A stretch of 64,000 nt of DNA from Candidatus Avoscillospira avicola (GTDB lineage: Bacteria; Bacillota; Clostridia; Oscillospirales; Oscillospiraceae): NCBI GenBank assembly GCA_018712245.1, contig DVHE01000007.1:1-64000 (forward strand). The letters are read 5' to 3'. Under the pieces are notes generated by a model that saw nothing but the letters and a program-made list of their open reading frames with translations, searched no databases and was not told where the DNA came from. Shown piece after piece: positions 25,471 to 46,289 of this stretch. The position numbers were made by a program, and so were the translations under genes. The number at the start of each line of letters is the position of its first letter. The first letter of the stretch is position 1.

Positions 25471-25560
25471 AACCTGTGATTTTCGACCGCGAAAATCACA
25501 GGTTTGGCAGCGCCGCAAGGCGATGCCTTTTTGATTAAAATCAAAGATTTTAATCAAAAA
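25471..25560 (+). other. Three consecutive hairpins directly upstream of the LysRS gene
   Basis: 15-bp perfect stem/4-nt loop; 4+4 bp stem with GCAA loop; 15-bp perfect stem/3-nt loop. Confidence 0.85.
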
Positions 25561-37769: not shown

Positions 37770-37800
37770 AGGGCTGCCCATTGGGGGATGAATAAAATTG

Positions 37801-38036
37801 CGCCCCCGGCTCTCGTGGAGAGAGCCGGGGGCGCGAGACTTTCAAAACTACAAAAAGCTTCCGCGACAGAGCAGCGGGGGATGGGTAACAGGGGGCAAAG
37901 AACCCCCGAAGGTGAATTGCCCGCAGGGCAAGAGAAGCTGGCCTGGGCCATGCGCGTTCAATCAGGGTGTTTTTGCAACTTTAAGAAAGTTGCAAAAACT
38001 AAGGCAGCGTGGAGAAAACACTTTTTCGACACGCTG
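37801..38036. other. Hairpin island in convergent intergenic region (five hairpins)
   Basis: Stems at 37801-37833, 37891-37907, 37917-37931, 37969-37999, 38005-38036. Confidence 0.8.
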
Positions 38037-42985: not shown

Positions 42986-43210
42986 GTACTCCGCCGCCGC
43001 TATGCAGCCTAAGTGCGGGATGCTGCCGACGGCCCGAACCAGATGTGAAGGCAGCCCGGAAAGCCAAAAAATGCATCCAATTTGCAAATTTTTTGCTTTG
43101 AGGCGGGGAATATTGCTCTTGCAGGAACGTTTTTCCCGCGGTTTCCGTCCTATAATCAGACAACTTCCGCGCCTGCTGGGCGCGACCCCATTTGCAAGGA
43201 GGGACCTGTG

Positions 43211-44560
43211 ATGGATCAGGAAAGAAATCGGCGGCCTGGAGGCGTCGGGAAGGCGCTGCTGGGGGCCTTACTGGTACTGGTGCTGGCGGCAGAGCTGGGA
43301 GCTGCCGGCCTGTTGGTTTGGTACCTGCGCTTGCCCAAAGAGACGGAAGCCATCACGGTCCCGGTCACACCGCTTCAACCGACGGAAGAGACTGCGCCGG
43401 AGCCCGCGCCGACGCCGGACCCCGAGCCGGACCCGGCCCAACAGGAGCTGCTCCAGGCCCGCCAGGCGCTGCTGGAGCGGGCCTACAGCCTGGCCCAGGG
43501 CTATTACTACACCGAAGCGCTGGCGCTGCTGGACCAGGCCGACAGTCTGCGCAATCCGCAGACCGAAGCCCTCCGCCAGGAGATCGCGCAGAAGCAGGCC
43601 GAGCTGGTGCCCTATGAGGGCGATCAGTTTTACCATATTTTCTTCCACAGCCTGATTGTGGACACAGATCGTGCGTTCGATGGCGATTACGATTCAGCTG
43701 GATATGATCTCTATATGACCACGGTTTCTGAATTCAAGGCCATGCTGCCCAAGCTCCAGGCGGCGGGATTTATCCTCTATGACATCACCGATTTGGTGGA
43801 GTTCCGGGACGGCAAGGCGGTACGTCGGGAGATTCTGCTGCCGCCGGGGAAAAAGCCGCTGGTGATCTCCGTGGACGATGTGAATTATTATAAGTATATG
43901 GAAGGCGACGGCTTTGCCGAGCGGCTGGACGTGGACGAAACGGGACGGGTGGTGACGGTGGTGGACGGTCAGCCCACCTATGACGGCGACGTCATGCCCA
44001 TCCTGGACCAGTATGTGGCCGAGCATCCGGAATTTTCCTGGCAGGGCGCCAAGGGCGTTGTGGCCATCACCGGCTATGAGGGCGCCTTTGGCTATCGCAT
44101 CACCGACCTGGAGGATTACGACGCCGAGACCCAGGCATGGATGCTCCAGAAGACCCAGGATGTGGCGGAGGCCCTCCGGGGGAGCGGCTGGCAGATCGCC
44201 TGCCACAGCTATACCCACAACCAGTATTGGAGTGACCGCACCATCACCGACCAGCAGGAGCAGTACGACATTGGCCGGTGGAAGCGGGACATTGCCCCCT
44301 ACGTGGGAGAGACCAACATTTTCATCTCGCCCTTCGGCGTCTCCTTCGCCGACGACGATCCCAGGCTCCTCTACCTCAAGGAGCAGGGCTTCACCATCTA
44401 CTGCCCGGTGGAGGCCAATATGACCACCCGCTGGGAGAACGGGATGCTGTTCCAGGGGCGGCTCAACCTGGATGGACTGGTGATGAAAGACTATCCCGAG
44501 CGGGTCAAGCGGTTCTTTTTTGACCCGGCGGATCTGCTGGACCCGGCCCGTCCCGGCTGA
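43211..44560 (+). CDS. Membrane-anchored polysaccharide deacetylase-like protein
   Basis: N-term TM; KPLVISVDDVNYYKYM, WQIACHSYTHNQYW, FISPFGVSFADDD. Confidence 0.75.
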   Translation: MDQERNRRPGGVGKALLGALLVLVLAAELGAAGLLVWYLRLPKETEAITVPVTPLQPTEETAPEPAPTPDPEPDPAQQELLQARQALLERAYSLAQGYYYTEALALLDQADSLRNPQTEALRQEIAQKQAELVPYEGDQFYHIFFHSLIVDTDRAFDGDYDSAGYDLYMTTVSEFKAMLPKLQAAGFILYDITDLVEFRDGKAVRREILLPPGKKPLVISVDDVNYYKYMEGDGFAERLDVDETGRVVTVVDGQPTYDGDVMPILDQYVAEHPEFSWQGAKGVVAITGYEGAFGYRITDLEDYDAETQAWMLQKTQDVAEALRGSGWQIACHSYTHNQYWSDRTITDQQEQYDIGRWKRDIAPYVGETNIFISPFGVSFADDDPRLLYLKEQGFTIYCPVEANMTTRWENGMLFQGRLNLDGLVMKDYPERVKRFFFDPADLLDPARPG

Positions 44561-44603: not shown

Positions 44604-44883
44604 GGCAGCCGGGGCGCAAACACTGCGCCCCGGCTGCCTCAGCGTGTCGAAAAACCCCCGGAAGCGGGAAACAAGCCTCGCAGAGTTTCGCCGCCGCAGC
44701 GGCGAAATAAAATTAAAATGGCGATTTCCGGGGACATGCGCATCGGAAATCGCACTTTACACCTCCAAAGGTTCGACAGCTTTTCGAAGAAAACCGAGAA
44801 CCTTTGGAGGTGCAATCCCCTTTGTCAAAAAAGCAATGCTTTTTTGACAGTTTCAAAGAGCCCCGGTTTTGGCACCGGGGCTC
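44604..44883. other. Hairpin island in convergent intergenic region (six hairpins)
   Basis: Stems at 44604-44638, 44686-44707, 44721-44753, 44760-44812, 44824-44848, 44858-44883. Confidence 0.85.
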
Positions 44884-44900
44884 TTGCGTATTGCGGGAGT

Positions 44901-46289
44901 TTACTTCGCCTGCATAGCCTGGTCGATGGCGGCGGCGGCTTCCTTGCCGGCGCCCATGGCCAGGATGACGGTGGCAGCGCCGGTGACGGCGTCGCCGCCG
45001 GCGTAGACCTGGTCGCGGGTGGTCATGTGGTTCTCGTTGACCACCAGGCAGCCCTTGCGGTTCACTTCCAGGCCGGGGGTGGTGGAGCGAATCAGCGGGT
45101 TGGGGCTGGTGCCCAGGGACATGATGACGGTGTCCACATCCAGGACGAACTCGCTGCCTTCCACGGGGATGGGACGGCGGCGGCCGGAGGCGTCGGGCTC
45201 ACCCAGCTCCATCTCGATGCAGGTCATGCCCTTGACGCGGCCATCCTCGTCGCCCAGAATTTCGGTGGGGTTGGTGAGGGTCTTGAAGATGATGCCCTCT
45301 TCCTTGGCGTGGTGCTGCTCCTCCAGACGGGCAGGCATCTCAGCCTCACCGCGGCGGTAGACGATGTACACGGTCTCGGCGCCCAGACGCTTGGCGCAGC
45401 GGGCGGCGTCCATGGCCACGTTGCCGCCGCCGACCACGGCCACGGCCTTGCTGACGATGATGGGGGTATCGCTGGCATCTTCGTAGGCCTTCATCAGATT
45501 GACACGGGTCAGGTACTCGTTGGCGGAGTAGACGCCGCGGAGCGCCTCGCCGGGGATGTGCATGAACATCGGCAGGCCGGCGCCGGAGCCGACAAAGACG
45601 GCCTTGAAGCCCATCTCCTCGAACAGCTCGTCGATGGAGAGGACCTTGCCGATGACCATGTCGGTCATCACGGTGACGCCCATGGCCTGGAGCTTTCTCA
45701 CTTCGTTGGCCACGATGGCCTTGGGCAGACGGAACTCGGGAATGCCGTAGACCAGCACGCCGCCGGCGGTGTGGAGAGCCTCAAAGATGGTGACGTCGTA
45801 GCCCTTCTTGGCCAGCTCGGCCGCGCAGGTGAGGCCGGCGGGGCCGGAGCCCACCACGGCCACCTTGATGCCGTTGCTCTGGGGCTTTTCGGGCATGGCG
45901 TTGACGTTCTCGCGGTACCAGTCGGCGACGAACCGCTCCAGGCGGCCGATGGCCACGGGCTCACCCTTGACGCCGCGGACGCACTTGCTCTCGCACTGGG
46001 TCTCCTGGGGACAGACGCGGCCGGAGAGGGCGGGCAGGGCGTTGGTGGAGGTGACGATCTCATAGGCGGCCTGGAAGTCGCCCTCGGCCACCTTGGCGAT
46101 GAACTCGGGGATGTGGATGTTGACGGGGCAGCCCTCGACGCACTTGGGCTTCTTGCACTTAAGGCACCGCTTGGCCTCTTCCACAGCCATTTCGGCGGTG
46201 TAGCCCAGGGCGACCTCCTTGAAGTTGTGGTTGCGGACGTTGGGGTCCTGCTCCGGCATGGGAGTCTTGGTCAAAGTCATATTAGCCAT
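44901..46289 (-). CDS. NADPH-dependent glutamate synthase-like flavoprotein (GltA/NfnB-type)
   Basis: CLKCKKPKCVEGCPVNIHIPEF, VGSGPAGLTCAAELAKKGYDVTIFE, VVGGGNVAMDAAR. Confidence 0.92.
   Translation of the reverse strand: MANMTLTKTPMPEQDPNVRNHNFKEVALGYTAEMAVEEAKRCLKCKKPKCVEGCPVNIHIPEFIAKVAEGDFQAAYEIVTSTNALPALSGRVCPQETQCESKCVRGVKGEPVAIGRLERFVADWYRENVNAMPEKPQSNGIKVAVVGSGPAGLTCAAELAKKGYDVTIFEALHTAGGVLVYGIPEFRLPKAIVANEVRKLQAMGVTVMTDMVIGKVLSIDELFEEMGFKAVFVGSGAGLPMFMHIPGEALRGVYSANEYLTRVNLMKAYEDASDTPIIVSKAVAVVGGGNVAMDAARCAKRLGAETVYIVYRRGEAEMPARLEEQHHAKEEGIIFKTLTNPTEILGDEDGRVKGMTCIEMELGEPDASGRRRPIPVEGSEFVLDVDTVIMSLGTSPNPLIRSTTPGLEVNRKGCLVVNENHMTTRDQVYAGGDAVTGAATVILAMGAGKEAAAAIDQAMQAK

Follow-up and report, generated by a model that had tools for sequence, protein, structure and literature searches.

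A genome-wide family of gene-less transposons, many flanked by duplicated terminator hairpins, in Candidatus Avoscillospira avicola

Hairpin island B (44604-44883) lies between the gene at 43082-44560 and gltA in the 64,000-nucleotide stretch of Candidatus Avoscillospira avicola DNA analysed here ("the window") and raises the question of what placed six consecutive hairpins there. A first-pass annotation had connected it through a 14-mer with a second cluster, island A, and had proposed an undescribed MITE-like family, possibly acting as a transcription barrier or structured RNA.

Island B and its repeat family

All six stems of island B are present in the window sequence, although the fifth has 12 bp rather than the 11 bp first reported. 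Folded as RNA, the island had an MFE of -143.9 kcal/mol versus a shuffle mean of -89 (z = -10.9), and 0 of 200 shuffles equalled it. The 14-mer CAGCGTGTCGAAAA is indeed common to both islands (44640-44653, plus strand; 38023-38036, minus strand), but it is not restricted to them: there are 38 further sites, making 40 in the 2.4-Mb genome, versus 0 for the reversed pattern. From aligned copies, the left end was determined as (T)CAGCGTGTC(G/A)AAAAA and the right end as TTTTTTGACAGTCT(G/C), an imperfect inverted repeat of the left; the right-end pattern had 50 genome sites (control, 0). BLAST with island B returned ~40 scored copies with 86-96% identity (105 first-look candidates), and BLAST with island A returned a second, distinct set, also of ~40 scored copies. 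Members of subfamily B measure ~214 bp, or 275 bp where 61 bp are inserted internally; for subfamily A the lengths are ~161 bp and, with an insert, 204 bp. Complete copies of 157-275 bp consist mostly of hairpins and contain no transposase gene. We concluded that island B belongs to a family of non-autonomous transposons (MITEs) spread over the whole genome, and that the 14-mer is its left transposon end, not a regulatory motif. Islands A and B are different MITE subfamilies with common ends. The features of the two islands are listed by window position.

44604-44638, plus strand: predicted host terminator hairpin of the 43082-44560 gene, external to the element (stem 1, 44604-44618/44624-44638, 15 bp); the flanking stem varies from copy to copy
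44640-44853, plus strand: subfamily-B MITE copy, island B proper, 214 bp; genome copies 86-96% identical, ends common to 39 complete copies
44640-44654, plus strand: left terminal inverted repeat CAGCGTGTCGAAAAA; 40 exact 14-mer sites; resembles the ends of IS1182-family insertion sequences
44686-44707, plus strand: internal hairpin TTTCGCCGC/GCGGCGAAA, part of core AGCCTCGCAGAGTTTCGCCGC (stem 2, 44686-44694/44699-44707, 9 bp); 98.9% of cells paired
44721-44753, plus strand: internal hairpin GCGATTTCCG/CGGAAATCGC (stem 3, 44721-44730/44744-44753, 10 bp); invariant, paired in every aligned copy
44760-44812, plus strand: internal hairpin CACCTCCAAAGGTTC/GAACCTTTGGAGGTG (stem 4, 44760-44774/44798-44812, 15 bp); 98.6% paired, 5 pairs changed on both sides
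44823-44849, plus strand: sub-terminal hairpin TGTCAAAAAAGC/GCTTTTTTGACA (stem 5, 44823-44834/44838-44849, 12 bp); invariant in aligned copies
44838-44854, plus strand: right terminal inverted repeat GCTTTTTTGACAGTTT(C); TTTTTYGACAGTYT occurs 50 times in the genome, its reversed control never
44856-44885, minus strand: predicted host terminator hairpin of gltA (44901-46289, minus strand), external to the element (stem 6, 44858-44867/44874-44883, 10 bp); an identical hairpin flanks an element on contig C8
37836-38036, minus strand: subfamily-A MITE copy, most of island A, 201 bp
37800-37834, unstranded: predicted host terminator hairpin adjoining the island A element; the opposite flank has no hairpin to match it

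The outermost two hairpins of island B had been counted with the other four. Because they lie beyond the fixed ends and vary in sequence from copy to copy, we assign them outside the repeated element, as probable intrinsic terminators of the host genes. A third region grouped with the islands, 25471-25560, matched neither subfamily. Its paired hairpins lie in the leader of a gene for a class-I lysyl-tRNA synthetase that carries a tRNA-binding domain at its C terminus. Rfam gave 0 matches above the gathering score in the window, and no description of these MITEs, of IS1182 MITEs or of palindromic MITEs of Oscillospiraceae was found in open-access papers. To that extent the proposal of an undescribed MITE-like family stands, with the supposed conserved module being the transposon end.

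Maintenance of the hairpins by compensatory change had also been anticipated. In shuffles that ignore kinship among copies, the 6 pairs with two-sided changes in subfamily A compared with a mean of 2.6 (0 of 500 as high), and the 5 pairs in subfamily B, all in the 15-bp hairpin, with a mean of 1.9 (2 of 500 as high). The palindromes of the MITEs are kept. Template-switch repair of palindromes can also yield two-sided changes, and because it can restore palindromes, these changes do not show RNA to be the reason. Copies of the element lay between convergent genes in 19 of 36 cases (co-directional, 16; divergent, 1) compared with 4 of the 35 gene pairs in the window (co-directional, 26; divergent, 5), orientations for which we used a simple, rough codon-usage gene caller, so that only the direction of this bias is reliable. 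IS1182 insertions have been reported to be over-represented between convergent genes (PMC9208149).

Hairpins at the insertion sites

Neither the repetition of terminator hairpins on the two sides of the element nor a link to IS1182 appeared in the first-pass annotation. For each of 39 complete copies, we matched the 50-base flank preceding the left end against the 50-base flank following the right end, with a score threshold of 15. The same hairpin was present on both flanks in 26 copies, over 23-39 bp (median, 32.5), whereas 0 of 1482 mismatched flank pairs reached the threshold (best score, 12). Duplicated hairpins were mostly flush with the element, within 0-2 nt, and up to 39 bp were identical; a stem of at least 8 bp lay within 3 nt of the left end in 32 of the 39 copies and of the right end in 31. 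The length of the duplication tracked the span of the hairpin (r = 0.80; mean difference, -0.7 nt). Most transposons, by contrast, make target duplications of fixed length. Since the same terminator flanks 26 of 39 copies and none of the mismatched pairs, we concluded that insertion duplicates the whole target hairpin. A clear duplication was absent in 13 of the 39, both window copies included.

At one occupied site (L282), the element is missing from the congeners G001, G003 and G007, in which the same gene is followed by a single terminator. Because their terminator sequences differ, they represent an unoccupied site rather than a base-for-base empty one. At another locus (L128, in genome G088), the loop of one duplicated hairpin appears inverted relative to the other, and L074 (contig C76 of the present genome, G000) looks similar; these inverted loops could reflect cruciform processing.

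Island B itself has different hairpins on its two flanks. The right-flank, gltA-side hairpin recurs at the end of contig C8 (C8:1-210, L319), next to a truncated element, and gltA of congener G007 adjoins the orthologue of the C8 gene; no second copy of the 44604-44638 hairpin was present among the fetched loci. The repeated hairpin and the gene order in G007 indicate that the window is probably mis-joined at island B, and the join in its contig, C68 (window 44638-44885), probably reflects either chimeric assembly across the repeat or recombination between copies. Contigs C3, C11, C16, C45, C51, C57, C63, C65 and C83 end inside an element. Contig ends broken within an element pair up by their matching duplicated hairpins, as in C11-C57 and C51-C45, and such matching could serve to scaffold this genome.

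Candidate mobiliser and mode of insertion

Full-length IS1182-family insertion sequences (ISs) of related Oscillospiraceae (L122, L128 and L136) have the same ends as the MITEs and the same hairpin on both flanks. Their transposases, which have DDE and DUF772 domains, reach 385-401 bits with NF033551, the IS1182 model, whose cutoff is 270. The MITE ends also occur at L096, an IS1182-family locus of a congener, and in congener G004, which also has MITE copies, a partial IS1182 with this end lies next to a terminator. The likeness between MITE and IS is confined to ~15 terminal bases; beyond the ends, we found no sequence similarity between the MITE interior and the IS body. Other IS1182 subgroups, such as L092, were rejected as partners because their ends differ. 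As the full-length ISs combine the same ends with duplicated hairpins, an IS1182-family transposase is the likely mobiliser. An intact matching transposase was not found in this genome (84% complete), which has only degenerate IS1182 matches; its elements may thus be stranded, or the IS may lie in the missing 16%.

We consider it very probable that island B is a gene-less MITE moved in trans by an IS1182-family transposase that targets and duplicates terminator hairpins. The data that support this are the fixed ends, the multicopy family, the duplications of hairpin length, the ISs that have these ends and duplications too, and the changes that preserve stems. We infer the following course. 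The DDE transposase would recognise the ~15-bp ends and move the MITE in trans, picking as its target an inverted repeat that as a rule is an intrinsic terminator. The 3' ends of the element would be joined at the two 5' feet of the hairpin, which is probably extruded as a cruciform, and gap repair would leave one full hairpin copy per flank. One complete terminator would stay with the upstream gene, and the other copy would go to the downstream or opposing gene. Insertion would be cheap for the host, so copies would build up between convergent genes.

An element maintained as a functional unit, as a bidirectional transcription barrier or structured RNA that spread through benefit to its host, would fit the two-sided changes by which internal stems keep pairing, the strong convergent bias and the recurrence of core AGCCTCGCAGAGTTTCGCCGC across genera. 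Placement, however, is explained by the transposon-type ends and the hairpin target duplications; host terminators already stand on the flanks, the element is absent from congeners at the one site examined, and template switching can give two-sided changes. We regard this alternative as unlikely. That the flanking hairpins belong to the element, or arose by recombination, rather than being target duplications would suit the copies with different hairpins on their two flanks, but the hairpins vary between loci, match within a locus and lie flush with both ends, and true ISs show the same pattern, which makes such an origin very improbable. An IS30-family mobiliser, for example of the IS1630 type, is equally hard to credit: the genome does contain two intact IS30-family transposases (G000 C76:1557-2423 and C49:9954-10823), yet neither has matching ends nearby, and it is IS1182-family ISs that carry these ends with the same duplications.

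IS1630 (IS30 family) of Mycoplasma fermentans reportedly targets and duplicates inverted repeats of variable length. It differs from the elements described here in transposase family, and the IS30 copies of this genome lack these ends. The IS1272 element of Staphylococcus aureus is one that, in line with the IS1182 model, we take to belong to the IS1182 family. It targets inverted repeats and replaces the target without duplication; the same study also drew another possible route, pathway b, in which the whole stem-loop is duplicated (Wan et al. 2017, PMC5678879). Like IS1272, the present system would use a DDE transposase, and its targets are inverted repeats of unrelated sequence with no sequence motif. 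Unlike IS1272, which replaces the target hairpin, it has the hairpin duplicated in 26 of 39 copies, and most copies are gene-less MITEs at terminators. IS1182-related transposases are noted to vary in how they act, target DNA structure being one factor and target duplication being present or absent (2025 paper, PMC12056078). As with other bacterial MITEs (review, PMC10969869), the elements are short, gene-less, multicopy, intergenic and hairpin-forming, with terminal inverted repeats, but what they duplicate at the target is an entire terminator (23-39 bp), not a short direct repeat. They resemble REP/BIME, pneumococcal BOX, RUP and SPRITE in being palindromic intergenic repeats and differ from them in sequence. 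We know of no association of those repeats with duplication of host terminators.

Occurrence across the Oscillospiraceae

The B element had matches, often partial, in 46 of 121 family genomes and 42 of 106 genera. Its 21-bp core was found in Papillibacter cinnamivorans, Pseudoflavonifractor, Candidatus Avoscillospira, Candidatus Pelethomonas and many Oscillospiraceae MAGs. Among 12 elements with recognisable ends from Papillibacter and other genera, 7 had duplicated hairpins (control, 0 of 132). A further 87 core matches had no recognisable end pair under the patterns used; some of those inspected have more diverged ends, and in others the ends were not definable. The core (window 44674-44694; loci L179-L276) is kept in otherwise diverged elements of many Oscillospiraceae genera.

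We lean towards a broader reading, in which an Oscillospiraceae branch of IS1182, with its MITEs, would recognise extruded terminator cruciforms, insert at their 5' feet and copy the whole terminator each time, a low-cost strategy pursued genome-wide and across a bacterial family. If this is true, cruciform-foot insertion with terminator copying is a route that had previously only been drawn as a hypothesis for the IS1182 family. The duplications described here provide natural evidence, controlled with mismatched pairs, for the whole-hairpin target duplication that the IS1272 study (PMC5678879) proposed but did not see for IS1182-family elements, and the question of hairpin or cruciform recognition becomes testable. 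They also explain the pile-up of hairpin repeats behind Oscillospiraceae genes, where assemblies break and mis-join, as has probably happened in the window.
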